From the IMG/VR virus record IMGVR_UViG_3300042507_002011, positions 1 to 29,528 of that record: a DNA stretch of 29,528 nt; one strand, written 5' to 3'. The stretch is from a virus. The position numbers were made by a program, and so were the translations under genes. Below, piece by piece: positions 3,862-20,874 of this stretch (its first letter is position 1; every line of letters begins with the position of its first letter). Under the pieces are notes generated by a model, which searched no databases, was not told the origin of the DNA, and saw nothing but the letters and a program-made list of their open reading frames with translations.

Positions 3862-3890
3862 ACAATAGTCGTCTTGTGTGCTAGACGCAA
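3862..3890 (-). promoter_or_regulatory. Integrase promoter (TTGCGT - 17 bp - TATTGT)
   Basis: On the minus strand TTGCGT (3890-3885) is followed after exactly 17 bp by TATTGT (3867-3862), 26 bp before the int start codon. The -35 box is the outer half of a 17-bp palindrome, so a bound regulator would block RNA polymerase. A copy of GTTACCC (3852-3858) lies between the -10 and the Shine-Dalgarno. Confidence 0.65.
3874..3890. promoter_or_regulatory. 17-bp operator-like palindrome, site C
   Basis: TTGTGTGCTAGACGCAA; its reverse complement begins TTGCGTCTAG, identical over ten bases to the site at 6071. It matches that site at 14 of 17 positions. It covers the -35 box and spacer of the integrase promoter. 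Confidence 0.6.
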
Positions 3891-3895
3891 GCGGT

Positions 3896-3924
3896 TTGTG
3901 TGTGGCGCGCAGCTATGGCATAAA
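3896..3924 (+). promoter_or_regulatory. Candidate promoter for the 3950 gene with a degenerate operator
   Basis: TTGTGT (3896-3901) is followed after 17 bp by CATAAA (3919-3924), 25 bp before the start codon of the rightward gene. The 17-mer at 3896-3912 (TTGTGTGTGGCGCGCAG) matches the operator family at 12 of 17 positions and is centred 22 bp from site C. The divergent int and 3950 promoters may thus share one regulator. Confidence 0.4.
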
Positions 3925-3949
3925 GGGACGGTTTTGAGGGGCTAGAAGC

Positions 3950-5899
3950 ATGGCCGAAGTTATCGAACTCGTCAGAAACGCGATCCGCTCCATCTCCGAA
4001 AAGACGAGGCAGGACGCCTATCGTCTTTTGGTCGATGGCGGCATGAAGCCAGAAGATGCGGCGCGTAATGCTGACCGAGTTGCGGACAAGGTAAAGATGC
4101 GTTCTGCCGTGGCTGCTGCCGTCCCGACGATGGGCGGGCAGCTGGTCGAAGGCGCAATCGACAGCGCGCAGTTCTTCGACGACGCAATCCGTGGTCGTGT
4201 GCAGCCTTCTCTGCTTGATCCAGAGACGGGCGAGACCGTCAGCAATCCGGCTTACACAAGAGGCATCCTCGACCTAGCCATGAACATTGGCACGCCGTCG
4301 ATGGCTCGATCCGTCACACGCGGAGGGCGCGTCGATCCGAACACGCTCGGCATCTTCGGCACGACAGACGCGCGCAAGGCTCCGCTCGAAACGCTCGACG
4401 CCGCAAAGGCGATGCAGAAGCAGGGCGCAGATGCGAATGACATCTGGCGGCAGACAGGATGGGGCTTCGACCCTACCGATCAGAAATGGAAATTCGAGAT
4501 CGACGACAGCGCATCGCGCGTCAGCGATCAATTCGCACAACGCGATCGTGGTCGTGGATTTACTGAACGCGGAAAAGTGAAGACGGTCGGTGAGGCTTAC
4601 GACCATCCAGAGCTATACGCGAACTACCCCGACACAGCTCGCACGCCTCTTGTGATGAACCGTGATGTGCAAAACAGCGCAACGGTTCGCGGTCTTTACG
4701 ACCATCGCAACAAAACGATGGACGTTCGTCGTGGCATGGATGACGAGCTGATGCGCTCGACATTGGCGCACGAAGCGAACCATAACGTGCAGGGCATTGC
4801 CGGCATGACGCGAGGCACAAGCCCCGAAGCTGCCGGCTCATACGAAGCCTATCGCTACAGCCCCGGTGAGGGCGGTCCGTTCGGCTCGTATAACGTCGAG
4901 AAGCGTTTGAGCATGACGGCAGACGAACGCCGTCGCACAACGCCTTTCCAGACAGCTGACGCAGACTTCGGCGGCTCGGTTCCGACAGGCGATGCGCCTT
5001 CGATGTCGGCTGGCCGTCCTCCGCGCATTGATCTCGGCGGTCCTCCTGTCAGCGGCATCCTTGATCTCTCGGGCCAGTATTCGCCCCGCAGCGGCCTGCT
5101 GGCTCCCGGCTCCGGCTATACGCCAGTTCCCGGCAAGCCGGGTGTCGTGACGATCCCCGGCATCGGTCAGGTCGAAGCGCGTCCTGTCGGACTGCTCAAT
5201 CAAGCTGCCGACGCATACATGGCGAAGACCGGCAACCCCGGCGCGCATCGAGCTGCATCGTTCCCTGAGTTCGACGAAGCGAAAGCTACGCGCATCGCCA
5301 ATGCTTTCGAGGCGATGCCGCACAACCCGTCTGACCCTGCCGTGAAGCGCAGCTATGACGCGCTGATCGACGAAACGCTGGCTCAAGGCCGTGCGCTTCA
5401 GGATGCAGGCGTCGATATTCGCTTCCTGAAGGAAGGCATGTCTGATCCTTATGCAAAGTCGCCGGCAATGGGATATGCCGATCTCGTCAAGAATAACCGT
5501 CTCTATGTGTTCCCGACAGACTTCGGCTTCGGCTCGAGCGCAGCTTTCGATCCGGTCGATAACCCGTTGCTGAAGGGCATCGGCAAGTTCGGTGATAAGC
5601 CGAACGCTGTGGCGAACGATGCCTTCCGTGCCGTTCACGATCTCTTCGGACACTTCGCTCCCGGCAATCCGTTCTTCCGCCACAAGGGCGAAGATCGCGC
5701 ATGGAATGTTCACGCTCGCATGTTCTCGCCGGAAGCTCGAGGAGCTATGACGACAGAGACACGCGGGCAGAACAGCTGGCTGAATTTCGGTCCTTATGGC
5801 GAGTTCAATAAGACGGCATCCGGCGCTGATACGCGCTACGCAGATCAGAAGATCGGGCTGCTGCCGGATTGGGTTTGGCGGGACGAAGAGTTCCGTTGA
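3950..5899 (+). CDS. Large polyvalent-type phage protein with a zincin-like HEANH motif and a conserved C-terminal domain
   Basis: 649 residues. Residues about 1-60 are helical. About 140-190 contains IWRQTGW...KWKFEIDDS, a signature I associate with domains of large phage polyvalent proteins. A metallopeptidase-like motif HEANH (274-278) sits in a typical setting, RSTLAHEANHNVQ. About 310-430 is a Pro/Gly-rich linker. The C-terminal 200 residues include AVHDLFGHF (562-570) and TETRGQNSW (601-609), highly patterned and probably enzymatic; I cannot name this fold. It stands alone between int and the early operon under its own putative promoter. Such proteins are often injected with phage DNA or act early against host factors; that role is inference. 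Confidence is high for the gene, moderate for the zincin, low for function. Confidence 0.75.
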   Translation: MAEVIELVRNAIRSISEKTRQDAYRLLVDGGMKPEDAARNADRVADKVKMRSAVAAAVPTMGGQLVEGAIDSAQFFDDAIRGRVQPSLLDPETGETVSNPAYTRGILDLAMNIGTPSMARSVTRGGRVDPNTLGIFGTTDARKAPLETLDAAKAMQKQGADANDIWRQTGWGFDPTDQKWKFEIDDSASRVSDQFAQRDRGRGFTERGKVKTVGEAYDHPELYANYPDTARTPLVMNRDVQNSATVRGLYDHRNKTMDVRRGMDDELMRSTLAHEANHNVQGIAGMTRGTSPEAAGSYEAYRYSPGEGGPFGSYNVEKRLSMTADERRRTTPFQTADADFGGSVPTGDAPSMSAGRPPRIDLGGPPVSGILDLSGQYSPRSGLLAPGSGYTPVPGKPGVVTIPGIGQVEARPVGLLNQAADAYMAKTGNPGAHRAASFPEFDEAKATRIANAFEAMPHNPSDPAVKRSYDALIDETLAQGRALQDAGVDIRFLKEGMSDPYAKSPAMGYADLVKNNRLYVFPTDFGFGSSAAFDPVDNPLLKGIGKFGDKPNAVANDAFRAVHDLFGHFAPGNPFFRHKGEDRAWNVHARMFSPEARGAMTTETRGQNSWLNFGPYGEFNKTASGADTRYADQKIGLLPDWVWRDEEFR

Positions 5900-5972
5900 T
5901 TTTCTGACGCCTTCTGCCATTCTCCCCTGACGGGTAGAGCCATGCTCCCCGTTGGCGCGTCCTCCCGACGCC

Positions 5973-6014
5973 GGGGGCGTTCTGTATCTCCTCTCCTCCC
6001 GACAGAACGCCCCC
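5973..6014. repeat. Perfect 13-bp hairpin with a pyrimidine-rich loop
   Basis: GGGGGCGTTCTGT (5973-5985) pairs perfectly with ACAGAACGCCCCC (6002-6014) around a 16-base loop containing TCCTCTCCTCC. No T-run follows, so it is not a standard terminator. It lies in the 240-bp gap after the 3950 gene and before the early promoter. It may end transcription by another mechanism, stabilise an mRNA 3' end, or be a structured RNA with an anti-Shine-Dalgarno-like loop. Confidence 0.6.
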
Positions 6015-6070
6015 ACCCCATTTCGGGCCGATCGGGCAAATCTTGAGCGTGATTTGATGTCGATTTCTCT

Positions 6071-6087
6071 TTGCGTCTAGGGCGCAA
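6071..6087. promoter_or_regulatory. 17-bp operator-like palindrome, site A
   Basis: TTGCGTCTAGGGCGCAA, with TTGCG/CGCAA arms around a CTAG-containing centre. Its first six bases can serve as the -35 of the early operon promoter; a weak -10, TATGTG, follows after 16 bp (6093-6098). It is almost identical to the site at 12452 (one difference in 17). Confidence 0.65.
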
Positions 6088-6139
6088 GGCGATATGTGTT
6101 GTGCATGGCGATCGACGGGATCGCTGCGAACAAGAGGAA

Positions 6140-6328
6140 ATGAAATTGAGCAAGTCGCCACTCGCACGCTACGCCAAAACTCTGAACACACTTTCGTCCG
6201 TCGATGTTGCGCGCATCTCATCAATGGTCCGTAAGGGCCATAGCGCGCAGGGCATCAAGTCAGAAACGCCTTTCACCTTGAAGCAGATCAATGCGGTCTT
6301 CGCATTGGTCAGCATGCAACAGCAATAA
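6140..6328 (+). CDS. Small early protein, unknown function
   Basis: 62 residues from ATG 6140, with an AAGAGGA ribosome site just upstream; a longer frame from 6071 would start inside the operator and is rejected. The product is basic and predicted helical (KLSKSPLARYAKTL...). It is the first gene after operator/promoter site A, so it would be among the first early products. A 12-codon reading frame at 6105-6143 overlaps its start codon as ATGA, a possible but unproven leader. I recognise no family. Confidence 0.7.
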   Translation: MKLSKSPLARYAKTLNTLSSVDVARISSMVRKGHSAQGIKSETPFTLKQINAVFALVSMQQQ

Positions 6329-6343
6329 AACAGGAGAGAAAAA

Positions 6344-6544
6344 ATGACACAGCTCAAGACATACGAAAACGTCTATGTGGCGATGGAGCAGCAGGCCGAT
6401 CGCACATGGCTCGTCTTCAACAAGGTTCGCGGCATCTACGAAGACCGCACCTTTCGCACCTATGACGCAGCGCGCAACACGATGGTCGAGCTGACAGAGC
6501 GATACAAGATCATCGCTCGCGGCAAAAACCCGTCATACGTTTGA
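6344..6544 (+). CDS. Small conserved-looking hypothetical protein
   Basis: 66 residues. A strong ribosome site (CAGGAGAG) precedes the ATG. The sequence alternates short strand-like and helical segments (TWLVFNKVRGIYED, then a basic helix) and contains no cysteine, signal or membrane segment. It is the second gene of the early operon, 15 bases after the first. No family recognised. Confidence 0.7.
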   Translation: MTQLKTYENVYVAMEQQADRTWLVFNKVRGIYEDRTFRTYDAARNTMVELTERYKIIARGKNPSYV

Positions 6545-6555
6545 GGGAGGGAGCA

Positions 6556-6909
6556 ATGACAGACACACCTACAAAACGCGACGGCAACGCCGAACTGCGC
6601 GAACACTGCGAACAGATTGCGGAGCGCCTTCGCACAGGCGTTTTCGATGACTTTGAGCCAGAGGAGGAGGGCGAAGAGCCAACAGCTTATGACTTCCTGC
6701 AAGACGCTCTCGACATTGAGTATGTCGTCAATACCAAAGGTGAATATCTCGGCGCTCGCGTTCTCGTTGCATTTGGCGGACCGAACATCTGGATCAACAC
6801 ACGCTCTGGCATGGTTGAAGGCGCATGGTGGGGAACGCGAGCAAATGTTCCGTTCTATGACGGCATAGGCTTAGACGACGCCTTAGAAGAACTCTGGAAC
6901 TGTCGCTGA
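6556..6909 (+). CDS. Acidic early protein, unknown function
   Basis: 117 residues from ATG 6556, placed behind GAGGGAGGG; a TTG five codons upstream is less likely. The first 55 residues are strongly acidic (FDDFEPEEEGEE). The second half is strand-rich with several Trp and Gly (GGPNIWINTRSG, VEGAWWGTRA). Small acidic early phage proteins often mimic DNA or bind host factors, but nothing here proves that. It ends 12 bases before the next gene. Confidence 0.7.
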   Translation: MTDTPTKRDGNAELREHCEQIAERLRTGVFDDFEPEEEGEEPTAYDFLQDALDIEYVVNTKGEYLGARVLVAFGGPNIWINTRSGMVEGAWWGTRANVPFYDGIGLDDALEELWNCR

Positions 6910-6921
6910 GAGGAACAACAA

Positions 6922-7227
6922 ATGCGCTCTTTATCTCACGGTGAATTTATCAATGCGGTGCAGGCCATTCGTGGCCGCACCGATCTCTCAGAGCGTGAAC
7001 GCGCTCGTCGCATCAACAAGCTAATGGAGGAGCAACGTGGCAACAAACGAGATGATCGCTCGATCGAGGGCAATCTTAATGGCTCGAGCGGCGATTACTG
7101 CACGCGACAAGAAGGAGGAGCCTCGTTTTATCAAACGTCGAAAGAAATCCGTGTCCCACACATCCTCTGGATCGCCCTGTTCTGGTCGATCGTGATGATG
7201 TTCATCGCAGAAAACTTTATTCCGTAA
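6922..7227 (+). CDS. Small protein with a C-terminal membrane segment; possible frameshifted pair
   Basis: 101 residues in one frame, with AGAGGA upstream of the ATG. The N-terminal 40 residues look natural (charged helix, SERERARRINKLMEE). The C-terminal HILWIALFWSIVMMFIAEN is a convincing membrane helix. The stretch between (about residues 45-75) looks like out-of-frame sequence, whereas another frame there, starting GTG 7037, reads naturally. This may be two genes linked by a -1 shift or an indel. Treat the 101-residue product with caution. Confidence 0.5.
   Translation: MRSLSHGEFINAVQAIRGRTDLSERERARRINKLMEEQRGNKRDDRSIEGNLNGSSGDYCTRQEGGASFYQTSKEIRVPHILWIALFWSIVMMFIAENFIP
7037..7195 (+). 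CDS. Overlapping alternative reading frame with its own ribosome site
   Basis: 52 codons from GTG 7037, preceded by GGAGGAGCAAC. The first 37 residues (MATNEMIARSRAILMARAAI..., ending in a basic KRRKK) look like a genuine helix leading to a positively charged membrane-anchor flank. The last 15 residues look out of frame. A -1 shift near 7140-7160 would join the basic stretch to the membrane helix encoded in the 6922 frame. It may be the real start of a small membrane protein. Confidence 0.4.
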   Translation: MATNEMIARSRAILMARAAITARDKKEEPRFIKRRKKSVSHTSSGSPCSGRS

Positions 7228-7245
7228 CAGAAGGAACCCTATGCA

Positions 7246-7770
7246 ATGTTTCCAGCACAAGTCGTCATCACAGCTCTGAATAAAGCCGGATCGGTCGCAG
7301 AACTCGCGCGTCAAATGGGCGTGATAGAGCAGACCGTCTACAACTGGCTGAACTACAAACACTGTCCATCTGCTCCGCGCATCGACGATCTGCTTGCGTT
7401 CATCGAAAACACACCGCGCAAGAAAAGCGCATGGGAGATGCGTCAGGAGGAAATCGAACTTCGCTCACATCGCGCACCAAAAGTCGTCGTAGAGGAGGAG
7501 CCAGTGCGTGCGTATAAGCCGGAGCCTGTTGCGCCGATCGAAAACAAGCCGTGGAAGCAGCTCGTCGAAATCACGCGCATCAGCGAAAGTCTGAAATTCT
7601 CATTCGGCATCACGGATGAAGCGAAGGTCGTTTTCATCCCGCCATACCTCACTGACAAGCTGAAGGATGACAATGTTCAGGACGGCGACGAGATCACGCT
7701 GATTGTCCGCGACAACGATCATCCGAACGCCGATCTCTTCGCGCTCAAGTGGATTGAGGAGGACGAGTGA
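7246..7770 (+). CDS. Helix-turn-helix protein with a C-terminal beta-rich domain
   Basis: 174 residues. Residues about 8-45 form a Cro/CI-like helix-turn-helix (SVAELARQMGVIEQTVYNWL). A basic, Pro-rich linker follows to about residue 100. The last 70 residues (SLKFSFGITDEAKVVFIP..., VQDGDEITLIVRDND) look like a small beta barrel, possibly OB-fold; that is a pattern judgement. A ribosome site (AGAAGGAA) precedes ATG 7246. It is a candidate regulator or nucleic-acid-binding protein of the early operon. Target unknown. Confidence 0.7.
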   Translation: MFPAQVVITALNKAGSVAELARQMGVIEQTVYNWLNYKHCPSAPRIDDLLAFIENTPRKKSAWEMRQEEIELRSHRAPKVVVEEEPVRAYKPEPVAPIENKPWKQLVEITRISESLKFSFGITDEAKVVFIPPYLTDKLKDDNVQDGDEITLIVRDNDHPNADLFALKWIEEDE

Positions 7771-7964
7771 TGGCGATCGAAGTTCGCAAGAACGCCGATG
7801 GGTCTTGGACCGTCTTCTATTTCGGCAAGGAAGCCGGGTTCATCGAACCTGTCCGCATCAACAGAGCAGAGCGCACCTATCGTGCAGTCAGCGTGCATGG
7901 TCGCCTGACGCACACCTACACGCTCGAGGGCGCAAAGCAATTCGTGATTGAGAACTACGCATGA
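7770..7964 (+). CDS. Small hypothetical protein
   Basis: 64 residues. The start ATG 7770 overlaps the stop of the preceding gene (TGATG) behind GAGGAGGAC, and its own stop overlaps the next start (ATGA), showing tight translational coupling. The product is strand-rich (SWTVFYFGKEAGF...) with one terminal helix. No family recognised. Confidence 0.7.
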   Translation: MAIEVRKNADGSWTVFYFGKEAGFIEPVRINRAERTYRAVSVHGRLTHTYTLEGAKQFVIENYA

Positions 7965-8395
7965 CGAACTGGACAGAACATTACAAACAGGTCCGCGCGC
8001 GTCTCAACAAGACAGCGCAGATCAAGAAGGTCGCGCCTCGCAAGCCGATCGAAGACTACGTCTTGCCTCGCCCGCTGCCGGAGACGCCGCAGTCGATCGA
8101 GGAGCAGCAACGCAAACGGATGAAGGGCTGTCCGCTCTCTCTGCGCCGGCAAGGTCTCGTCCTGCCGATCTTGGAAGAGTTCGACATGACATGGGAAAAG
8201 CTGTGGGCAAAAGATCGACGCGCCGTTCTGATGACGCCTCGCCGCAAGGTCTGGCTGAAGCTGTGGGAAGACGGCATGTCGATCTCGCAGATCGGCCAGT
8301 TCACGCAGCGCGATCACACAACCGTTCTATGGGGCCTGCGGGCAATCAAGAAAGCACAATCGGAGGACAAGGCATGCACTACCGCGACACTCTAA
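7961..8395 (+). CDS. DnaA domain-IV-like DNA-binding protein
   Basis: 144 residues. The C-terminal segment, about 105-132, reads SISQIGQFTQRDHTTVLWGL, close to the signature helix-turn-helix of bacterial DnaA domain IV (RDHTTV followed by a helix). No ATPase domain is present, so this is the DNA-binding module alone behind a basic N-terminal region. In host DnaA this domain reads the 9-bp DnaA box. A perfect box (TGTGGATAA) occurs at 12420-12428 upstream of the replication genes. A role at an origin or as a DnaA competitor is inference. The start overlaps the previous stop. Confidence 0.75.
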   Translation: MTNWTEHYKQVRARLNKTAQIKKVAPRKPIEDYVLPRPLPETPQSIEEQQRKRMKGCPLSLRRQGLVLPILEEFDMTWEKLWAKDRRAVLMTPRRKVWLKLWEDGMSISQIGQFTQRDHTTVLWGLRAIKKAQSEDKACTTATL

Positions 8396-8769
8396 AGCAG
8401 GCTGTTGAGACGATGGACGAGAGGCAGAAGAAATATGCCTCGCCAGAAAAGAACTTCGCCCGCATCGCATCGCTCGCGTCGATCATGCTGAACCGCAACG
8501 TGACGCCGTATGAGATCAGCATGATCCATCTCTGCACGAAGCTGGCTCGGCACATCGAGACGCCGACATACGACGACAACATCCTCGACGGCGTGAACTA
8601 CCTCGCCTTTGTCGGGACATTCGCCGGACAACATTTCGATGGTCTTGGTGAGGTCCGTCGCGTCGAGATCGTTAAGGGCATGGAGGATGCGCTGCTGGCG
8701 CAGCTGGCAAAGCAGGCTCCCGTTCTGACGGAGGAGGAGTTGGCCTCTCTCAAGGAGGCTGCGACATGA
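8374..8769 (+). CDS. DUF6378-family phage protein
   Basis: 131 residues from ATG 8374, with CGGAGGACA upstream; it overlaps the end of the DnaA-like gene by 22 bases. The core matches the DUF6378 pattern: KNFARIASL, then PYEISMIHLCTKLARH, then DNILDGVNYLAF, a compact helical fold with conserved Lys/Asp/Asn residues. The family is common in phage early regions and its biochemical activity is unknown. A longer frame from 7948 is a shadow of the preceding gene. Confidence 0.8.
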   Translation: MHYRDTLKQAVETMDERQKKYASPEKNFARIASLASIMLNRNVTPYEISMIHLCTKLARHIETPTYDDNILDGVNYLAFVGTFAGQHFDGLGEVRRVEIVKGMEDALLAQLAKQAPVLTEEELASLKEAAT

Positions 8770-8999
8770 AGAGCCTGATCGAACAGTTTGAGTTCTTGGC
8801 GCGCACATCGCAAGACCCTGTCGATGCACAAGGCTTCAGGGTCGCCGTCGAAGCCTTGCAGATGTGCCAGAGGGCGCTTGAGTTTTATTCCTGCAACTGC
8901 CAGCTTCCTTGCACGGAGCAGCAATACAAGGACAGTCCTTGCGGCATGCGTGCGAACTCAACACTGAAAGCGATGGCAGATGGACGAACAAACCATTAA
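8766..8999 (+). CDS. Small cysteine-containing hypothetical protein
   Basis: 77 residues. The start overlaps the previous stop (ATGA). Residues 1-40 are helical; the second half holds CNC, PC and PCGM cysteines (about 43-60) that could bind a metal. It overlaps the next gene by 20 bases. No family assigned. Confidence 0.6.
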   Translation: MKSLIEQFEFLARTSQDPVDAQGFRVAVEALQMCQRALEFYSCNCQLPCTEQQYKDSPCGMRANSTLKAMADGRTNH

Positions 9000-9234
9000 C
9001 GCCGACTTCAGCAGCAACGTGCGCGTTCGCTGCGCGCAGATTGCAAATGTCGTCATCACGCTCGCTGAGAACATCAGCGACCACACAGAAACACCAACAT
9101 GCGCTGTCTTTCAGGAAATCATAAAGGCAGCTGTTGGAGCCTTATACGTCAATGGTCACGAAGACTGCGCCGATGCTTTGCTCGCCGCGTTACTCGAGAT
9201 CAATGACATTCCCGAAGACGCCAGCATCAACTGA
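8980..9234 (+). CDS. Small helical hypothetical protein
   Basis: 84 residues, starting inside the 3' end of the preceding gene. It is predicted mostly helical, with three cysteines and an acidic C-terminus. The start has only a weak purine stretch (GATGGCAG). It is an early operon member of unknown role. Confidence 0.6.
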   Translation: MDEQTINADFSSNVRVRCAQIANVVITLAENISDHTETPTCAVFQEIIKAAVGALYVNGHEDCADALLAALLEINDIPEDASIN

Positions 9235-9246
9235 AGGAGAGGAAAG

Positions 9247-9405
9247 ATGCGCCGTTTATTGACTGCACTTGGACTGACTGTGTTCCTACTGGCCCCGACT
9301 GTCGCTGTCGCCTGTTCGACATCGACCTATTTCGTGAACGGCAAAGTGATCGTCTGCGTGACGTGCTGCCAGAACGGGCAGAACTGCTCGACGGTCTGTT
9401 CGTGA
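9247..9405 (+). CDS. Secreted six-cysteine mini-protein
   Basis: 52 residues, absent from a simple long-ORF view. AAGGAGAGG precedes ATG 9247. A short basic N-terminus (MRRLL) and hydrophobic core lead to LAPTVAVAC, a good signal-peptidase site (AVA before Cys) and a near-lipobox. The mature part is about 30 residues with six Cys, including VTCC and NCSTVC, so it should fold as a disulfide-bonded or lipid-anchored periplasmic peptide. Phage envelope peptides of this kind can act in superinfection exclusion or lysis control; here that is inference. It lies between cytoplasmic early genes. Confidence 0.75.
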   Translation: MRRLLTALGLTVFLLAPTVAVACSTSTYFVNGKVIVCVTCCQNGQNCSTVCS

Positions 9406-9414
9406 GGTCGCGCC

Positions 9415-9654
9415 ATGATGAATGAATTTCATGCGTGGTTCAAAAGCGCGAAGAAAGGTTATCGCTACACCTACCATCGCGGTGATCTTGCGTTTGATCG
9501 TTATGCCCCATCACGGCATGAGCCGACAGTGAAGCAGCGCGAGCTAGGGTTCCTAGCTGACATGGCTTACGAGCTTTTCTACCAGCGCGAGATCACGCTG
9601 ATCCAGAAGAAGCATGCCGTGAATGACTACGAATACATTGCGGTGAAGCTATGA
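9415..9654 (+). CDS. Small hypothetical protein
   Basis: 79 residues, rich in Tyr, His and basic residues (GYRYTYHRGDLAF...). Two Met codons stand at the start (ATGATG); a GAGG lies upstream. The stop overlaps the start of the deaminase gene (ATGA), so the two are translationally coupled. No family recognised. Confidence 0.65.
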   Translation: MMNEFHAWFKSAKKGYRYTYHRGDLAFDRYAPSRHEPTVKQRELGFLADMAYELFYQREITLIQKKHAVNDYEYIAVKL

Positions 9655-10091
9655 CGAAGTGGGCGCAACGCTTCCTCGATCTTGCGGCGCATGTTGCAGG
9701 CTGGTCGAAAGACCCGTCAACGAAGGTCGGTGCTGTGGCTGTCGATCCGACATCACGCGCCGTCCTATCGACGGGATACAACGGTCTGCCTCGAGGCGTC
9801 GATGACCAGCCGTGCCGCATGCAGCGGCCCGGCAAATATCTATGGACTGCACACGCTGAAGAAAACCTCGTCGCACATGCGGCGAGGCAAACGCTTCACG
9901 GTGCGACGGTTTATGTCACGCATCTGTGCTGCGCCAACTGCACACGGATGCTCATCAATGCCGGCGTCAGAAAGATCGTGTGCGGTCCCGGTCTGACAAA
10001 TATGGAATACGAGAACTTCGTCGTCGCGCGACAGATGATGAAGGAAGCTGGCGTAGAGCTAGAAGTCGAAGATGTGCAGGAGGGGAAGTGA
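9651..10091 (+). CDS. Deoxycytidylate (dCMP) deaminase
   Basis: 146 residues. It shows the zinc-dependent cytidine-deaminase core: HAEEN (H68, E70) and CxxC at C94/C97 (HLCCANC), with STKVGAV and GYNGLPRG typical of the dCMP branch. The usual Pro before the first CxxC cysteine is replaced by Cys. It converts dCMP to dUMP in the cytoplasm, feeding dTMP synthesis for phage DNA. No thymidylate synthase or dUTPase is visible in the window, so it probably feeds host enzymes. It is flanked by overlapping small genes. Length is normal for the family. Confidence 0.93.
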   Translation: MTKWAQRFLDLAAHVAGWSKDPSTKVGAVAVDPTSRAVLSTGYNGLPRGVDDQPCRMQRPGKYLWTAHAEENLVAHAARQTLHGATVYVTHLCCANCTRMLINAGVRKIVCGPGLTNMEYENFVVARQMMKEAGVELEVEDVQEGK

Positions 10092-10315
10092 TGGCTGGTA
10101 AGCGTATGCACTACGGTATCGGATCGTATGAAAGCGCACTCAAGTTAAATCGGGAGCTTCTTCTCCGCTTGCGAGAAAAGGATGAGATGAACTTTTCGAT
10201 TAACCGCTACATAGAAACGGCTGCGCTTGATAACTTGTTGCCGCCAGAGCCTCGCCGCACCAACGCCGTTGGCATCCCATTGATCCGCGCCGCGCTTGGG
10301 GAGGGGAAGGAATGA
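10091..10315 (+). CDS. Small hypothetical protein
   Basis: 74 residues. The start overlaps the dCMP deaminase stop (TGATG) behind GGAGGGGAA. The first half is a charged helix (SALKLNRELLLRLREKDE); the end is Gly-rich. No family recognised. It is co-translated with the deaminase and the following gene. Confidence 0.65.
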   Translation: MAGKRMHYGIGSYESALKLNRELLLRLREKDEMNFSINRYIETAALDNLLPPEPRRTNAVGIPLIRAALGEGKE

Positions 10316-10545
10316 CGCAAAAAACAGATGTCGTCCTTCGCATGCGTAAGGGTGCTGAAGTCGTCGATCGGCATCGCTTTCCGATGGTGTATCAGACCTA
10401 CACGGAAGCAGCCGACGAGATCGAAAGGCTGCGGCGTGACAAGGAGCGCGCGCTGGCTGCGCTGCGATATTTCAAAACAGGAAACTACAAGCAGCGTTTT
10501 GAGGTTCGCTACGCAGCCGAGTGTGCAATAGAGGAGATTGAGTGA
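10312..10545 (+). CDS. Small charged helical protein
   Basis: 77 residues. A GAGGGGAAGG ribosome site and an ATGA overlap define the start. It contains a long charged helix (about 30-55, DEIERLRRDKERALAAL) likely to dimerise as a coiled coil. No enzymatic motif. Unknown early function. Confidence 0.65.
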   Translation: MTQKTDVVLRMRKGAEVVDRHRFPMVYQTYTEAADEIERLRRDKERALAALRYFKTGNYKQRFEVRYAAECAIEEIE

Positions 10546-11199: not shown

Positions 11200-11200
11200 T

Positions 11201-12419: not shown

Positions 12420-12428
12420 TGTGGATAA
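12420..12428 (-). promoter_or_regulatory. Perfect DnaA-box sequence (TTATCCACA on the minus strand)
   Basis: TGTGGATAA immediately after the exonuclease stop is the exact reverse complement of the consensus DnaA box. It lies 3 bp from operator B1 in a 93-bp intergenic gap ahead of the recombination and replication genes. A second exact box at 18704 is inside a coding sequence. Confidence 0.45.
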
Positions 12429-12430
12429 GT

Positions 12431-12468
12431 TTGCGCCCTAGGCGTCAGTATTTGCGTCTAGAGCGCAA
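12431..12468. promoter_or_regulatory. Tandem operators B1 and B2, centres 21 bp apart
   Basis: B2 (12452-12468) is TTGCGTCTAGAGCGCAA, one base different from site A. B1 (12431-12447) is TTGCGCCCTAGGCGTCA, matching the inverse of site A at 14 of 17 positions. Centres at 12439 and 12460 are 21 bp apart, two helical turns, as expected for cooperating dimers. The TTGCGT of B2 can act as a -35; the -10 is weak (TCTAGC, 16 bp spacing). They precede the small HTH gene at 12508. Confidence 0.65.
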
Positions 12469-12507
12469 GGCGTTCTAGCTAACACAAGCGAAGCAGGGAG
12501 TGTCGCA

Positions 12508-13996: not shown

Positions 13997-14004
13997 GCAA
14001 AGAA

Positions 14005-14037: not shown

Positions 14038-14072
14038 AGTTCGCCGCACTAGGGGGGATCGGGTAGCACGGC

Positions 14073-16238
14073 ATGACCGAAGCAGTATCAGAAAACACAA
14101 ACAAAAGCATCACCGAGCATTGCATGAAGCTCGCATTTGCTGTGGGTGGCCGCACGGACACGGCGCTCACGGTCAAGGATTACACGTTCCAGCAGCTCGC
14201 CGCTCGCCTGCGCTCACCAAAGCAGGGCGGTAAGGACGGCAGCTATTACATCCGTGGCGGCGATCTCGTCGCTCCCAAGCGCGCGGATGAAAACCTCCGC
14301 ACAGCTGAACTCCTCATTCTCGACGGCGACAGCCGGATCGACCCCGAAACAGGCGAGATCATCTCTGGCGCGCCTCCGATGCTGGAAGTCGGCGCCGCGC
14401 TCCGCGATATGAATATCGCTTATATCGCTCACACATCGCACAGCTATCGCCCGGTCAATGGTGGCGGTCAGCCGCACTGGAAATATCGCATCGTTATTCC
14501 GGCGCGTCTGAAGTCGCAGAAGGAGCTGGAAGCCTGCGTCCAGTGGACGCTCGCGCAGCTGCACGCACGGGGCGTCTGGCTGGCTGACGTGACCGAGAAC
14601 AGCAAATGGTCGCAGCCGTGGTATCTGCCTCGCGTAGAGCAGCCTGACGCCTTCCTAGCTGATGTGAACGAGGATGGTCATGCCTTCCCGGTCAGCGAGG
14701 CTATGGCGTGGGCGAAGGAGCGGCAGAAGCGCGAACAGGTCGAGCAGTCGATCGTCAGCAATCCTGTTAATCAATCATCCGGCGACATCGACACGTTCAA
14801 CAAGGCGCACAGTCTTGAGTGGGTGCGGTCGAAGCTCGAGAGCCAAGGCTACAAGTTCGTCTTCAAGGACGGCGACAAGTTCCGCTACATCAGGCCGGGT
14901 TCCGAGAGCGGCACTCCCGGCGTCGTCGTGTTTCGTGGCGCTCGAGGAGATTGGTGCGTCTTCTCGCATCACGGTGCCGCAGACCCGCTCTCAAACAAGG
15001 TCAGCGACCCGTTCGATCTCGTCGCAATCTTCGATCACAACGGCGATCGGAAGGCCGCAGCACGGGCTGTCCTGCCGAAGCAGCCGAATATCTCAGAGCA
15101 GCTTGGCATCTTGTCAGGACAACAGCCGGACAAGGCGGATCAAAACCCGATCAAATCTTTGGAGCCAAGCCAGCCCGAACAGCCCAAAAAGCGCGTCAGC
15201 CTCATCATGGCGAACGAGCTAAGGGATGAGCCGATCACATGGCTGATCGACCAGCTCGTCCCGGCCAAAGGCTTCGCGGCTCTCTACGGCAAACCCGGCA
15301 GCTACAAATCCTTCGTCGCGCTCTATCTCGCAGCCATGATCTCGACAGGTCAGGAAGCGTTCGGGCGCGACACAATCCAAGGCGACGTGATCTACGTTGC
15401 CGGCGAAGGCGGTGCTGGTCTCAAACGTCGATGGGATGCCGTCAAACGGCACTACAGCCTGCCAAACGATGCGCGCATCGCGTTCGTCAAGTCGCAGCTC
15501 AATTTACGCAGCACGCTCGAGGACTTAGAGGCATTGGTTGAAGCAATCAATGAACGAAAGCTCAAACCAAGCCTCATCATCATTGACACGCTCGCAAGAG
15601 CCTTCGCAGGCGGCAACGAGAACAGCTCAGAAGACATGGGCGCGTTCATAGCGGTCATGGGAGCCATGCAGGCACGGCTCGATAGCGCCGTGATGATCGT
15701 TCACCATTCAGGCAAGGACGAAGCCAGAGGACAACGCGGCCACAGTTCACTGCTAGGGGCCGTCGATGCCGAGCTAGAGGTCGTCAAGATCAGCGAAGAG
15801 GACAGCCAAGAGCGCGTTGGCAAGCTCACCGTTACCAAGCAGAAGGACGGCGAGGACGGCTTCGAGATCGGCTATGAGATGGTCACGATCCCGCTCTCAG
15901 CGATCGACCCTGAAGCGACATCGCTTGCCGTGCAGCCGATGGATAAGGTCGTCGAGGCACGCCGCAAGGCCGATCCGAACAAGCTCGCGCCCGGTCAAAA
16001 GCTCGTCTTCGATGCTCTCAAACTGGCGATCGAAGAGGCCGGAGAGACGGTCGGATTGGACCGCATACCGCCGCAAAAACGGTGCGTGAAAGTGTCTCTC
16101 TGGCGCGAGTATTACTACCGAATGTCTCCCCACAGCGATGCTGCCAAGAAAAAAGCGTTCATGCGGGCAAAAACCGAAATGCTGGCGCGGGGGACATTTG
16201 GCTGTTGGGCGGAATGGTGTTGGATTACAGAGGGTTAG
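14073..16238 (+). CDS. Primase-helicase fusion (AEP-like primase plus RepA/KaiC-type AAA ATPase)
   Basis: 721 residues. The N-terminal part (about 1-210) shows the archaeo-eukaryotic-primase pattern: LLILDGDS (D84, D86) and HTSHS (120-124), followed by KYRIVIPAR. The C-terminal ATPase has Walker A GKPGSYKS (406-413), GEGG (444-447), Walker B LIIID (501-505) and MIVHHSGK (541-548) as in RepA-type hexameric helicases. It should prime and unwind DNA at the phage fork and is the main replication protein here. GGGGGATC upstream can serve as ribosome site. Its last codons already contain the first GGGGGACAT of the repeat cluster that follows. Confidence 0.85.
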   Translation: MTEAVSENTNKSITEHCMKLAFAVGGRTDTALTVKDYTFQQLAARLRSPKQGGKDGSYYIRGGDLVAPKRADENLRTAELLILDGDSRIDPETGEIISGAPPMLEVGAALRDMNIAYIAHTSHSYRPVNGGGQPHWKYRIVIPARLKSQKELEACVQWTLAQLHARGVWLADVTENSKWSQPWYLPRVEQPDAFLADVNEDGHAFPVSEAMAWAKERQKREQVEQSIVSNPVNQSSGDIDTFNKAHSLEWVRSKLESQGYKFVFKDGDKFRYIRPGSESGTPGVVVFRGARGDWCVFSHHGAADPLSNKVSDPFDLVAIFDHNGDRKAAARAVLPKQPNISEQLGILSGQQPDKADQNPIKSLEPSQPEQPKKRVSLIMANELRDEPITWLIDQLVPAKGFAALYGKPGSYKSFVALYLAAMISTGQEAFGRDTIQGDVIYVAGEGGAGLKRRWDAVKRHYSLPNDARIAFVKSQLNLRSTLEDLEALVEAINERKLKPSLIIIDTLARAFAGGNENSSEDMGAFIAVMGAMQARLDSAVMIVHHSGKDEARGQRGHSSLLGAVDAELEVVKISEEDSQERVGKLTVTKQKDGEDGFEIGYEMVTIPLSAIDPEATSLAVQPMDKVVEARRKADPNKLAPGQKLVFDALKLAIEEAGETVGLDRIPPQKRCVKVSLWREYYYRMSPHSDAAKKKAFMRAKTEMLARGTFGCWAEWCWITEG

Positions 16239-16343
16239 ACGAAAAAGGGACATGGGGGACATTGGGGGACATTGGTGTTTTCCGAAAGATGTCCCTTGGG
16301 GGACATGGGGGACACCACCCTTTAAGGGTGTCCCTATGTCCCC
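16189..16343. repeat. Cluster of GGGGGACA(T/C) repeats in both orientations
   Basis: GGGGGACAT occurs at 16189-16197, 16254-16262, 16264-16272 and 16298-16306; GGGGGACAC at 16307-16315; GGGACAT at 16247-16253. Inverted copies are ATGTCCC (16289-16295), GTGTCCC (16328-16334) and ATGTCCCC (16336-16343). The last part folds into a hairpin around CACCCTTTAAGGGTG (16316-16330). The array begins in the end of the primase-helicase gene and fills the 137-bp gap after it. It resembles iterons or a structured RNA; no spacer regularity like CRISPR is present. Confidence 0.7.
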
Positions 16344-16375
16344 GGATCAATCGAGGCGAGTGAGGAGAAGAGAAG

Positions 16376-16597
16376 ATGCAGTGCGAAACGTGCGTTTTTT
16401 GGAAACGCAAAAACGACATCTTGGGAGCAGGCAGATGCCGTCGATATGCACCGAAGCCGATCAACTGGTTCGTGCCTGACAGCGGCGAGGAAGATGACGC
16501 AGAGCCGACGCCCGAAGCCGTCTGGCCGGAGACTTGGAATGACGATTGGTGCGGCGAGTGGCAAAGCATGTTCGGAGGCAAGAAGTGGGGCGAGTGA
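16376..16597 (+). CDS. Small Cys4 zinc-ribbon-like protein (second copy of the type)
   Basis: 73 residues. Cysteine layout CETCVFW, then GRCRRYAP, then DDWCGEW, as in the protein at 10633. An acidic insert (GEEDDAEPTPEA) separates the halves. A GAGGAGAAGAGAAG ribosome site precedes the ATG. It probably binds zinc; role unknown. It is the first gene after the GGGGGACA cluster and its stop overlaps the next start (TGATG). Confidence 0.75.
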   Translation: MQCETCVFWKRKNDILGAGRCRRYAPKPINWFVPDSGEEDDAEPTPEAVWPETWNDDWCGEWQSMFGGKKWGE

Positions 16598-17136
16598 TGG
16601 AACGGGCGATGACGCCGCTTCCGCTGATCGACAGGACGCCGATCAAGGATGCGCTCGAGCCTGTCGATCGGGTCGCCGGCGAGATGGAAGGCAAGTGGGG
16701 CGTCGGTCGTCTCCCGCGTCTCGTCTCGCCGGAGATGGCGGCGAAGTTCTCGTCCGCCAGAGCCAAGCTCGACGAGGCGATCAGGGCGAACGATCTCGAG
16801 GCTGTCGTCAGCAAGGCTGCGGTCGTGATCCGTGGCTGGCACGCGCTCGATAAGGCTGCGACCGAAGCGGGACACAAGACCTATCCGCAAGGCGTCTGGT
16901 CAACCAAGCACAGAGGCACGACATACACGGTCGTCCTCGATCGGGCTGACGTGAACAAGGTCGCGCACGACAGCAAGGACGCAGGCCATGTCGTGACTTT
17001 GGCAGAGCTGCTGCTAGTGTGGGACGAGTTTCAGGGGAACAGGGTCATCAGCCAAACGAAGAGCCTGTTTCCCGGCGCGACCGTCGAGAAGGTCGGAGGG
17101 ATTGCGGAGCTGGATGATGACATTCCGTGGAATTGA
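16597..17136 (+). CDS. Unknown protein with an SSB-tip-like C-terminus (DDDIPWN)
   Basis: 179 residues from ATG 16597, which overlaps the previous stop. The first 100 residues are helical and charged; about 100-150 is strand-rich (GVWSTKHRGTTYTVVLDRADV). The last seven residues, DDDIPWN, nearly copy the DDDIPF tip by which bacterial SSB recruits replication and repair enzymes. No enzymatic motif was recognised. A link to replisome recruitment is inference. It overlaps the next gene by 20 bases. Confidence 0.7.
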   Translation: MERAMTPLPLIDRTPIKDALEPVDRVAGEMEGKWGVGRLPRLVSPEMAAKFSSARAKLDEAIRANDLEAVVSKAAVVIRGWHALDKAATEAGHKTYPQGVWSTKHRGTTYTVVLDRADVNKVAHDSKDAGHVVTLAELLLVWDEFQGNRVISQTKSLFPGATVEKVGGIAELDDDIPWN

Positions 17137-17320
17137 CGAGAACGAGGCACAGGAGGCCGTAGACAGGCTTCTTGCTGATGTCATGGATGACTACCTAGCA
17201 GAGCCAGAGAAGCCGTCAGTGCGCGTTATAGCCGTGCAGAGCAATGGTCGGCTAAGGACGATCAAGGTGACAGGGAATGTGATTTGGTTCCCGATCAGTG
17301 GGAAGAGGAAAGCGAAGTGA
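17117..17320 (+). CDS. Small hypothetical protein
   Basis: 67 residues from ATG 17117 (ATG 17114 is equally possible), with GCGGAG just upstream. An acidic helix (DENEAQEAVDRLLADVMDD) is followed by a strand-rich basic end (RLRTIKVTGNVIWFP). The stop overlaps the GTG start of the terminase small subunit. No family assigned. Confidence 0.6.
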   Translation: MTFRGIDENEAQEAVDRLLADVMDDYLAEPEKPSVRVIAVQSNGRLRTIKVTGNVIWFPISGKRKAK

Positions 17321-18012
17321 GTGAGGCAGAAGCCAAAAAGAAACCGGGTCCGGCTTCGATCAAGTCGCCCGAACTCATGGAGGAAATCTGTCAGCGCATT
17401 GCAGAAGGCCGATCGGTGAAGAGCATTTGCAATGACGACGACATGCCTTCGTTCGGTTTCGTATGGCGTTGGATCAGCGAAGACGCGGTATTTGAGCACC
17501 GCTACGCGCGCGCGATCCAGCAGCGAGCGTTGAACCACGCAGACGAAATTGCTCAATTATCTCAACAGGTTATCAGCGGTCAGGTTCCACCAGACGCAGC
17601 TCGCGTTGCCATCGACGCAATGAAGTGGACGGCTTCTCGTTTGTTGCCAAAGGTTTATGGCGATAAGCAGATCGTCGAAGCGAACGTCACGCACACACAT
17701 CAGCTGCATCTCGATGCGCTGCGTGCGCTGTCTGCACGTCGATCGGGTAACGATCTCGGGTATATCGACGCACAAGCCATTGATATTACTGGCGATCCAA
17801 CCTTTTCAGGTGAAAGGTTGGGTGCGTCGATGCCGGCGATCGAGGCGGTCCCTGTGCCTGTCGATGCCGCAGACCCCCCCGGCTCCCCCGATGGGGGAGG
17901 GGCGGCGCTGGCGGCGCACCCTTCTACGTCTACGGACGAAAAACCGTCAGACCCCCCTACCCCCGGCAAGCCTAAACGACGCCCCGCCAAAAAATTAAAA
18001 AATAAAAAATGA
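17317..18012 (+). CDS. terS: Terminase small subunit (Sf6-like)
   Basis: 231 residues from GTG 17317, which overlaps the previous stop and has AGAGGA upstream. Residues about 10-60 form the DNA-binding HTH (SPELMEEICQRIAEGRSVKS..., FGFVWRWISED), and about 65-130 the helical oligomerisation core (YARAIQQRALNHADEIAQL). A long Pro/Ser tail ends in a very basic KKLKNKK. It recognises the packaging site and loads the large subunit. It lies 1.4 kb upstream of the large subunit, separated by three genes, which is unusual but seen in related phages. Confidence 0.85.
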   Translation: MSEAEAKKKPGPASIKSPELMEEICQRIAEGRSVKSICNDDDMPSFGFVWRWISEDAVFEHRYARAIQQRALNHADEIAQLSQQVISGQVPPDAARVAIDAMKWTASRLLPKVYGDKQIVEANVTHTHQLHLDALRALSARRSGNDLGYIDAQAIDITGDPTFSGERLGASMPAIEAVPVPVDAADPPGSPDGGGAALAAHPSTSTDEKPSDPPTPGKPKRRPAKKLKNKK

Positions 18013-18344
18013 CGATCAGCTGGTTCAGATACGTCAGACATGCTGACGTTCCCGAATACGCAGCGAACGGATGGACTTACGCGGCGGACCTTGGCCCGAC
18101 GCATGGACTTTGGAGCGTGCTGATGCAATGGTCACGCACGGGAAGCCCGCCGGGTGTAGAGACGGACCATCTGGATGCCGCAGCCGCCGATACCGAAAGC
18201 TCTTGCAGAAGAGACGGTCAATGCTTTGGTGAAGGCGTTGCGGGCGGGGCATCCGAAGAGCGATGCGATCCAGTTGACGGCGAAGAAATTGAACGTCAGC
18301 ACGGGGACGATCTACACGCGCCTGCGTGCGGGCGGACCGATTGA
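18009..18344 (+). CDS. Small protein overlapping the phosphoesterase start
   Basis: 111 residues in frame, starting on the terminase stop (ATGA). The first 50 residues (WFRYVRHADVPEYAANGW..., THGLWSVLMQW) look like a real small phage protein of the kind found beside terminase genes. From 18175 onward it overlaps the phosphoesterase gene by 170 bases and reads like out-of-frame sequence. The natural C-terminus may have been lost or the tail may be neutral. Confidence 0.5.
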   Translation: MTISWFRYVRHADVPEYAANGWTYAADLGPTHGLWSVLMQWSRTGSPPGVETDHLDAAAADTESSCRRDGQCFGEGVAGGASEERCDPVDGEEIERQHGDDLHAPACGRTD

Positions 18345-19227
18345 GCGGTCACATCCTGAGCTTTATCAGCTGTTTTTAGACGAAATCACGCTTGTTCCGC
18401 GTGATGTTGAGTTCTCGCCCGCACCAAAGTTGCGTGTGTCGGTGCGGGCGGGAAGCAACCCTGAGGGCGAGACGATCAGGGTTTGCGCGATCGGTGATGT
18501 GCATGACAGCCCTACGCAGGACAAGGCGCGGTTCAAGTGGTTTGGCCGGCACATTGCGAAGACGAAGCCTGACAAGGTTGTGCAGATCGGTGACTTTGGC
18601 GACTTTCATAGTTGCTCGAGCCATGAGCCGATCGGGTCTCTGAGCGCGGCGATGAAGCCGTCCTACAAGCGCGATCTCGAAAGTTTGGAAGAGGCTTTAG
18701 GACTTATCCACAAGGAAATTTCGGGCAGCGGTATTCATCTGCATGTGGTCGAGGGGAACCATGAGGACCGGGTTTATCGGTTCCAAGACTTGCATCCCGA
18801 AGCTGACGGCATGTTCATTGATGCGTTGCAGGATGTGTTTGCGCGGTATGACTGGCGCGCGAAGCCGTATGGTGAGTTTTTGTTTATCGGTGGCGTCGGG
18901 TTTGTGCATGCGCCGAAGACGATCATGGGGCGGGCTTACAGCGGAAAGAACTCAGAGCAGCAGATTGGGAATGATGCGTTGTTCTCGATCGTGTGGGGTC
19001 ACACGCATCGGGCTGTGTTTAAGCAAGTGCCGAAGATCGGTCCGTCGCAGCACATCGAGGTGTTGAACTTGGGGAGCGCGATGCCGACAGGCTATGTTGC
19101 GCCGTATGCAGGGACGGCGACGACGGGCTGGTCCTATGGCATCTTTGATCTTGAGTTACGCGGCGGTCACATCGTCGGGCATAACTTCATCAGCATGGAT
19201 AGTCTGCGGTCGATGTATGGGGACTGA
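18175..19227 (+). CDS. Calcineurin-like metallophosphoesterase with N-terminal HTH
   Basis: 350 residues. Residues about 10-55 resemble a small helix-turn-helix (SDAIQLTAKKLNVSTGTIYTRL). The phosphoesterase metal motifs follow in order: GDVH (107-110), GDFGD (139-143), GNHED (194-198), H245 and GHTH (275-278). It should hydrolyse phosphomono- or diesters with two metal ions; the substrate is unknown and could be DNA ends, a nucleotide or a cyclic signal. It sits between the two terminase genes, so a packaging-linked or host-signal-degrading role is possible. The start has only a weak ribosome site. Confidence 0.88.
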   Translation: MPQPPIPKALAEETVNALVKALRAGHPKSDAIQLTAKKLNVSTGTIYTRLRAGGPIERSHPELYQLFLDEITLVPRDVEFSPAPKLRVSVRAGSNPEGETIRVCAIGDVHDSPTQDKARFKWFGRHIAKTKPDKVVQIGDFGDFHSCSSHEPIGSLSAAMKPSYKRDLESLEEALGLIHKEISGSGIHLHVVEGNHEDRVYRFQDLHPEADGMFIDALQDVFARYDWRAKPYGEFLFIGGVGFVHAPKTIMGRAYSGKNSEQQIGNDALFSIVWGHTHRAVFKQVPKIGPSQHIEVLNLGSAMPTGYVAPYAGTATTGWSYGIFDLELRGGHIVGHNFISMDSLRSMYGD

Positions 19228-19229
19228 CG

Positions 19230-19442
19230 ATGGATGAGGAAGACGAAGTGGTAATGATTGGTCAGGAGAGCGAGCTGGCGCAGCTTGCTGGCGCGTTGTG
19301 CAATCTGGCAAATCAGGTAGATGTGACGCGGGACGAGGACGCAAGGCTTTACTTGTTGCAGGCGATGGCTGGCATTACCTACATGCTCAACCCGCCGAAG
19401 GGGGAGGTTCATGTCATCGACGGCAGCAAAGGAAAGCGGTAA
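19230..19442 (+). CDS. Small acidic hypothetical protein
   Basis: 70 residues, starting two bases after the phosphoesterase stop with GGGGA upstream. The N-terminus is acidic (MDEEDEVV), the middle helical (SELAQLAGALCNLANQV). It overlaps the terminase large subunit by 32 bases. No family assigned. Confidence 0.65.
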   Translation: MDEEDEVVMIGQESELAQLAGALCNLANQVDVTRDEDARLYLLQAMAGITYMLNPPKGEVHVIDGSKGKR

Positions 19443-20820
19443 CGATTTCGTTGCGTTCATTGAACGGTATGAGCGCGATCCTGTCGGTTTTGTTGAGAAT
19501 GTGTTGGAGGCGAAGCCTCTTCCTTGGCAGAAGGATTTTCTGAGCGCATTGGCGCGTGGCGAGCGTAGGATCAGCGTTCGCGCTGGTCACGGTGTTGGGA
19601 AATCGACGGCGTGTTCGTGGGCTTTGATCTGGCACATGACGACGCGCTACCCGCAGAAGAGCGTCGTGACTGCGCCGACATCAGCACAGCTGTTTGATGC
19701 GCTCTATTCAGAGTTGAAGACATGGATCAACAAGCTGCCGCCAGTGTTGCGCGAGAGCTTTGAGGTCTTTTCCGATCGCGTTGTGTTGAAGGGTGCGCCG
19801 GAGAGTTCGTTTATCTCGGCTAGGACTTCTTCGACGGAGCGGCCCGAGGCTTTGGCTGGTGTCCACTCCGAACACGTTTTGCTGGTGGTGGACGAAGCAT
19901 CAGCCGTTCCTGAGCAGGTTTTCGAGGCGGCGGCGGGTTCGATGTCTGGTCACTCGGCATCGACGATCCTGATTAGCAACCCGACTAGAAATAGCGGATT
20001 GTTTTATAAAACGCATCACGATCTTGCGTCCGATTGGTATCGGATGCACGTCTCTTGTTTGAATATCCCGCTCGTTTCTGCTGACTTCGTTCAGCAGATC
20101 AAGGCGACGTATGGTGAAGACAGCAACGCTTTTCGTATTCGTGTTCTTGGCGAGTTCGCACTTGCCGACGACGACACGCTCATCCCGGCAGAGCTGGTCG
20201 ATGGGGCGATTGGGCGTGACATTGTTGCTGGCGCTAACGATCCTCTTGTTTATGGCCTTGACGTTGCGCGGTTCGGCACTGACAGAACGGCTCTTGTGAA
20301 GCGCAAGGGGAATGTTGTGCTTGACGTGAAGTCGTGGGGCGGTCTCGACACGATGCAAGTTGTCGGCGCGATCGTGAACGAAATGAAAATCGACAACCCT
20401 GACGAGATTTGCGTCGATACGATCGGTCTCGGGTCTGGTGTGGCTGACCGATTGCGCGAGATGGGTTACAACGTGCGAGACGTGAACGTGGCAGAGGCGT
20501 CGGCTATGAACCCGAACGCGAACAAGCTGCGTGATGAATTATGGTTGAGTGTGAAGGATTGGCTGACGACGAGGGCAGTGAAGCTGCCGGCAGACGACCA
20601 GCTGCGGCATGAGCTTGTTGCGCCGCGTTATTCGTTCACATCGAGCGGCAAGGTTCAGGTTGAGAGCAAGGACAGCATGAGAAAGCGTCGTATGCGTTCG
20701 CCTGACTTGGCCGATGCGTTGTGCCTGACGTTTGCGTCTCAAGCTGCGATGGTCGGAGGGCGTGCGCCGAAGTGGATACCCGGTCAGCCTTTGCGCCGTC
20801 ACATCAAAGGCGTGGTCTAG
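19411..20820 (+). CDS. terL: Terminase large subunit
   Basis: 469 residues, with GGGGGAGG just before ATG 19411. ATPase motor: Walker A RAGHGVGKST (57-66), Walker B VLLVVDEAS (156-164), coupling region ISNPTR (188-193). RNase-H-like nuclease: GLDVARFGTD (D284), VDTIGLGSGV (D336) and SPDLADAL (D432/D435). It pumps DNA into the prohead and cuts concatemers. The sequence type is that of P22/Sf6-like headful terminases, fitting the circularly permuted map inferred here. The stop lies just before the capsid-operon promoter. Confidence 0.96.
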   Translation: MSSTAAKESGNDFVAFIERYERDPVGFVENVLEAKPLPWQKDFLSALARGERRISVRAGHGVGKSTACSWALIWHMTTRYPQKSVVTAPTSAQLFDALYSELKTWINKLPPVLRESFEVFSDRVVLKGAPESSFISARTSSTERPEALAGVHSEHVLLVVDEASAVPEQVFEAAAGSMSGHSASTILISNPTRNSGLFYKTHHDLASDWYRMHVSCLNIPLVSADFVQQIKATYGEDSNAFRIRVLGEFALADDDTLIPAELVDGAIGRDIVAGANDPLVYGLDVARFGTDRTALVKRKGNVVLDVKSWGGLDTMQVVGAIVNEMKIDNPDEICVDTIGLGSGVADRLREMGYNVRDVNVAEASAMNPNANKLRDELWLSVKDWLTTRAVKLPADDQLRHELVAPRYSFTSSGKVQVESKDSMRKRRMRSPDLADALCLTFASQAAMVGGRAPKWIPGQPLRRHIKGVV

Positions 20821-20823
20821 TGT

Positions 20824-20852
20824 TTGCGTTGCGGACGCAATCAACGTATTTT
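20824..20852 (+). promoter_or_regulatory. Capsid-operon promoter (TTGCGT - 17 bp - TATTTT) under operator D
   Basis: Operator D (20824-20840) is TTGCGTTGCGGACGCAA, with perfect 6-bp arms TTGCGT/ACGCAA. Its first arm is the -35; TATTTT (20847-20852) follows after 17 bp. A second half-site GGCGCAA (20854-20860) lies 20 bp on, over the downstream edge of the -10. It stands in the 54-bp gap after terL and should start the portal-capsid transcript. Confidence 0.65.
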
Positions 20853-20874
20853 CGGCGCAACTTAGGAGATCAGC

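Follow-up and report, generated by a model that had tools for sequence, protein, structure and literature searches.

Palindromic promoter sites in an integrase-bearing tailed phage and its relatives suggest a dispersed-operator regulon read by a small Cro/C1-type protein

Background

In the CI-Cro systems of phages lambda and P22, Cro/C1-type proteins bind dyad operators within promoters and control their own synthesis, and the regulator gene lies before the replication genes. The C1 protein of phage P1 is a repressor with dispersed operators. Here, a set of 17 bp palindromes is analysed in the IMG/VR virus record IMGVR_UViG_3300042507_002011 (29,528 bases; the whole of this stretch is called the window), together with the small helix-turn-helix (HTH) protein that probably reads them, HTH12508. 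The gene content of the window is that of an integrase-bearing tailed phage.

Other described systems are also close in one respect or another. The stoperators of the cluster A mycobacteriophages are asymmetric, numerous and spread genome-wide, and the operator motif varies among related phages along with the repressor (PMC6550527); PMC9283540 likewise deals with asymmetric, distributed stoperator sites. Small Cro/prophage repressor pairs are present in telomere phages (PMC4997575, PMC4488713). The literature on the operators of the 16-3 repressor yielded nothing directly useful. The terL of Sinorhizobium phage phiM5 (MF074189), a phage that PMC10386132 describes as temperate, is 69.5% identical to that of the window.

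The system in the window resembles lambda and P22 in its Cro/C1-type protein, its in-promoter dyads, its proposed autoregulation and its gene order. Unlike their clustered OL and OR triplets, the operators are single and dispersed over four promoters, and CI is often missing from the relatives. A lambda-type clustered CI/Cro switch was rejected, as clustered operators were not found in the window. As with P1 C1 and the cluster A phages, one repressor would act at related sites across the genome. In contrast to stoperators, the sites are palindromic, four in number and all at promoters, for which reason they were not assigned to that class, and HTH12508 has no extra C-terminal domain. The regulon therefore appears to be of the dispersed-operator type, known in kind, with comparative support that is unusually clean.

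Palindromic sites in the window

A scoring matrix of 40 columns, trained on 21 sites that all come from other phages, picks only four places in the window, here called O-int, O-early, O1 and O-late (27.9 to 44.9 bits; Table 1). The next unrelated place scores 1.9 bits and the top of 20 shuffles is 11.2. The exact pattern TTGCG-N7-CGCAA occurs three times, at O-early, O1 and O-late, against 0.11 expected; TTGYG-N7-CRCAA occurs four times against 0.22 expected, with a maximum of 2 across 300 Markov shuffles. All four sites are at promoters, those of int, the early operon, the HTH12508 gene and the structural genes. In each, the upstream arm TTGCGT occupies the -35 position, 16 to 17 bp from a -10-like box. 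The TTG at 6071, listed as an open reading frame start, is part of the operator and unlikely to be a start codon.

The preliminary description had placed near-identical palindromes at five promoter positions, with the first arm doubling as the -35 hexamer, and had proposed a matrix scan of the phage and its relatives. That set is real in its core and partly confirmed. The scan returns exactly four window sites, which are kept in relatives, and both the promoter positions and the -35 overlap hold for them. The fifth position, O2, has two arm mismatches and was not recovered when the window was scanned with the matrix, and O-late shares only its arms with the other copies, its centre being different. 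The 20 to 22 bp pairing of sites also claimed does exist as spacings, but all three pairs depend on degenerate partners. In the subgroup of phages to which the window belongs, the left arm of O2 and CT-GGCG are conserved and the right arm is degenerate. For the partner of O-int, a similar two-mismatch site is found in G001, G010, G012 and G018 (relatives are given by working numbers with G or L); elsewhere it is weaker, mostly with one arm kept. The partner of O-late at 20844 is a half-site only, GCGCAA, lost in L015, L017 and L019 (GCGCGA).

Table 1. Coordinates of sites, promoters and genes in the window, and of related palindromes in two divergent phages.
Feature	Position	Strand	Sequence	Remarks
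int, integrase (tyrosine recombinase)	2760..3836	-		family matches; downstream of O-int; start 3836 set from homologues
O-int promoter	-35 3885-3890; -10 3862-3867	-	TTGCGT; TATTGT	17 bp spacer
O-int	3874..3890	-	TTGCGTCTAGCACACAA	one arm mismatch; 44.9 bits; in front of int
Upstream partner of O-int	3896..3912	+		two arm mismatches; 22 bp away
O-early	6071..6087	+	TTGCGTCTAGGGCGCAA	exact arms; 30.9 bits; early operon
O-early promoter	-35 6071-6076; -10-like 6093-6098	+	TATGTG (-10-like)	16 bp spacer
First gene behind O-early	6140..6328	+		62 aa; no known family
HTH7246	7246..7770	+		174 aa; third HTH protein
CI10795	10795..11199	-		134 aa; CI-like HTH_3 protein; homologue of phiM5_48 (P22 c2-like)
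PDDEXK exonuclease	11587			neighbour of HTH12508
DnaA box	12420..12428	-	TTATCCACA	perfect; fixed distance from the O2/O1 pair
O2	12431..12447	+	TTGCGCCCTAGGCGTCA	partner upstream of O1; two arm mismatches; 21 bp from O1
O1	12452..12468	+	TTGCGTCTAGAGCGCAA	exact arms; 27.9 bits; promoter of the HTH12508 gene
Regulator promoter	-35 12452-12457; -10-like 12475-12480	+	CTAGCT (-10-like)	17 bp spacer
HTH12508	12508..12732	+		74 aa; Cro/C1-type (XRE) HTH protein; proposed operator reader and autoregulator
RuvC-like resolvase	12860			neighbour of HTH12508
terL, terminase large subunit	19411-20820
O-late	20824..20840	+	TTGCGTTGCGGACGCAA	exact arms; 31.9 bits; between terL and structural genes
Late promoter	-35 20824-20829; -10 20847-20852	+	TATTTT (-10)	17 bp spacer
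SU10-type capsid protein	27063
G041 palindromes	L134 23513, 27149, 31857, 37304; L133 4505, 4628		TTGT-N7-ACAA
phiM5 palindromes	L191 23171, 29153, 34411, 37483, 43261		TTGTG-N7-CACAA type	at promoters

Conservation among related phages

The sites were compared over 80 terminase-relative loci, with exact sites counted on 50 terL-related contigs. At least one exact site is present in 30 of the 50 contigs; the pattern read backwards is present in one. When the spacer was varied from 0 to 20, only 7 was enriched, with 49 sites against 7 or fewer at any other length. TTGCG-N7 is also the top 5-mer dyad, with no prior choice of motif, in G024, G026, G027, G028 and G029. The site behind terL is in the same place in about 25 to 30 of the 80 loci, with the arms and the 17 bp spacing to a -10 box (for example TATTTT or TAGGTT) kept and the 7 bp centre variable. 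O-int and its -10 box are found upstream of int in eight relatives (G001, G008, G010, G012, G014, G017, G018 and G052), and the site extends throughout the subgroup, with TATTGT or TATTCT 17 bp on. Copies at the early operon are present in G001, G008, G010, G012, G018 and G052. A single site shared by int and the early operon was considered for the relatives and ruled out, as a scan upstream of int shows two separate sites.

It could be argued that such repeats are produced by codon or promoter constraints, without any regulator. In the window the loose pattern, with up to two mismatches allowed, is about as frequent as chance predicts (31 against 28.9 expected), and some exact palindromes in relatives are within genes and have no good -10 box. 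Yet the conservation of the arms in the promoters of diverged phages, the specificity of the spacer and the independently trained matrix refute this explanation, to which almost no probability can be given. The matrix scan found no intragenic palindromes of that sort in the window. As the loose pattern is not enriched, loose copies carry no evidential weight. Within the window alone the 5-mer dyad ranking is not decisive, with CGATC-N11 placed first.

Among the phages that lack the site, a blind dyad search turned up a convincing operator in G041 alone. When host genomes were searched, terL yielded only a 53% match, to a contig of a metagenome-assembled genome of Desulfuromonadales, and a profile of HTH12508 found no relative in the genome contigs.

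HTH12508 as the candidate reader

HTH12508 alone scores 18.3 bits against Pfam HTH_3, under the 23-bit cut-off, but all 8 members of its family match HTH_3 (best E 1.6e-6) and those of G024, G028 and G029 exceed the cut-off. Its predicted structure is a small HTH fold (predicted local distance difference test, pLDDT, 82.5). The solved folds closest to the model are HipB(Lp) (8ezt), the HipB-operator complexes 4yg1 and 4z5h, and the controller proteins C.BclI (2b5a) and C.Esp1396I; HipB(Lp) is also its best sequence match. Family matches and the modelled fold together place it among the Cro/C1-type (XRE) HTH proteins. The fold predicted for HTH12508 is thus like that of HipB antitoxins and of restriction-modification controller (C) proteins; unlike in those systems, neither a HipA toxin gene nor a restriction-modification gene adjoins it in the window. 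With no toxin gene next to it, a toxin-antitoxin (HipBA) role was rejected; the neighbours are a PDDEXK exonuclease and a RuvC-like resolvase.

Orthologues of HTH12508 are present in the site-bearing phages wherever the early region is covered, and the family can be detected remotely over most of the terminase clade. In the readable loci the palindrome is 48 to 80 bp before the start of the orthologue, even at 34% identity. The exception is G001 (L137), where it is 916 bp upstream, beyond inserted DNA. Repeated dyads of the operator kind overlap promoters of the phage, the regulator gene's own among them. After comparison with the relatives, the readings that the gene directly behind the O2/O1 pair encodes the regulator, and that one regulator may hold the int, early, regulator and capsid units, both proposed earlier, are the best supported by the sequences.

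The four palindromes are likely to be operators of a phage repressor, with HTH12508 as the probable autoregulating reader; we put the probability of this at roughly 0.7. In each case the palindrome overlies both the -35 box and the spacer of the sigma70-like promoter, and an HTH12508 dimer bound there would exclude RNA polymerase. The operator at the promoter of HTH12508 itself would give negative autoregulation. In this way HTH12508 would control int and the early operon, as well as the structural genes and its own gene together with the replication genes that follow, and the phage would be kept silent or damped. Activation from a site over the -35 box and spacer is unlikely, given the 17 bp spacer. 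Repression and autoregulation are favoured because the palindrome covers these elements.

The window encodes two other candidates. CI10795 scores better on HTH_3 than HTH12508 does, and phiM5 has a site at the promoter of its CI homologue, which would fit CI10795 as the sole reader; HTH7246 is the other protein that might read the sites alone. However, a hidden Markov model profile search did not find CI10795 in G008, G010, G011, G012, G014, G017, G018, G029 or G052, all nine of which bear operator sites, and HTH7246 is missing from many site-bearing phages. Both proteins are gone from many phages that keep all four types of site. These include G052, whose 100 bp terminal overlap suggests a complete genome; the CI-less G017 has one of 103 bp and is apparently complete too. 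In G052 the sole HTH_3 match is HTH12508. Sole reading by CI10795 or HTH7246 is therefore largely refuted over the clade and is improbable.

HTH12508 may be a lysogeny repressor or a Cro-type damper. Its gene precedes replication genes, a Cro-like trait. A wider role is favoured because a structural promoter appears to be under its control and because it is the sole HTH_3 protein in the integrase-bearing G052.

Divergent lineages and the CI-like protein

In G041, where the HTH12508 homologue is 43% identical and residue Q26 of the window protein, at the start of the HTH motif, is replaced by L, there is no TTGCG-N7-CGCAA site. There are instead six TTGT-N7-ACAA palindromes, other spacers giving 0 to 2. 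Two are in the gap between int and the early genes, and one each at the HTH promoter, behind terL, upstream of the portal gene and at 31857. The arm again serves as a -35 box, 17 bp from -10-like boxes at int (TATTCA), behind terL (TATCCT) and at the portal gene (TAGTCT). Operator and HTH12508 thus seem to differ together at matching promoters in G041, although this is one lineage in which the motif was found post hoc.

Phage phiM5 is like the window phage in its related terL, its homologues of CI10795 (phiM5_48, 46%) and HTH12508 (phiM5_36), and its 17 bp palindromes at several promoters. It differs in their arms (TTGTG...CACAA), in having a site at the CI homologue and in its early region. 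The 17 bp sites are at the promoter of the CI homologue (TTGTGTATTATACACAA), at int and at 37483. The pattern in phiM5 fits the CI homologue rather than HTH12508, which leaves G041 as the one lineage where operator and candidate repressor seem to covary. The phiM5 palindromes carry no annotation in the database record.

Several observations weigh against HTH12508 as the reader. In phiM5 it is the promoter of the CI homologue that holds a site, and phiM5_36 has none of its own. Remote relatives of HTH12508 are present in many site-less phages without a recognisable operator, those examined being within operons. G038 has one site behind terL (L114, 31160) and no detected HTH12508; this late site is perhaps a relic left after replacement of the early region.

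The G038 site would also suit a transcription factor of the host borrowed by the phage, as would the overlap of the palindrome with sigma70-like promoters. Against this, the operator differs among lineages (G041, phiM5) at matching promoters, and a site is present at the promoter of the phage regulator itself. A host factor is thus as doubtful as sole reading by CI10795 or HTH7246.

A further possibility, well short of an even chance, is that CI10795 and HTH12508 share the operators in opposite roles, CI acting in lysogeny and HTH12508 as Cro, with the CI-less lineages keeping HTH12508 only. This is compatible with HTH12508 as a reader and adds a second one. HTH12508 has the place of a cro gene, before genes for the RuvC-like protein and an AAA-domain primase/helicase-like protein. 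The 17 bp palindromes at the CI genes of phiM5, G041 and G024/G028 suggest that CI-family proteins may also read this operator class, in the way that CI and Cro share operators in lambda; in G024/G028 a palindrome with one mismatch stands immediately before the CI start. In G041, however, the CI promoter has TTGCGCCTAGTGTACAA, 17 bp before TATTGC, which differs from the regulon motif of that phage. Moreover, neither the window nor G001 has a site at its CI promoter, and the CI-less phages have the same sites at the same positions. The absence of a perfect copy at the CI-like gene of the window had been recognised at the outset. Likewise, no operator of lambda type is found in the window between CI10795 and its divergent neighbour, and the HTH12508 gene is 1.3 kb from that of CI10795.

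DnaA boxes and other genes

The DnaA box beside O2 has the same spacing in many relatives, whose genomes, like that of the window phage, are otherwise poor in such boxes. A second perfect box (18704-18712) is within a phosphoesterase gene and is found in relatives too. The small protein encoded at 7961-8395, which is kept in most relatives of the subgroup, resembles the DNA-binding domain IV of DnaA (Bac_DnaA_C, below the cut-off).

Between the int and early operators is a gene for a 649 aa protein (3950-5899) with an LPD23 domain and weak similarity to metallopeptidases. In relatives the gap is empty or holds other genes, and it therefore looks like a cargo slot.

Implications

It may be, though we consider it rather unlikely, that a widespread group of environmental temperate phages relies for immunity on a single repressor, a HipB-like protein of about 70 residues that has no effector domain. 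This protein would use one operator for each of the integration, early, replication and structural promoters, the operator would drift by lineage, and the conserved DnaA box at its own promoter could couple the switch to replication of the host.

For a poorly known group of environmental phages, related to the cultured phiM5 of Sinorhizobium through the packaging genes, the analysis defines a probable operator, names a small protein as candidate regulator and lists the presumed targets. The conserved arms ease promoter annotation in this uncultured group. Since the operator changes between lineages at matching promoters, the group may be useful for studying how immunity specificity diverges.

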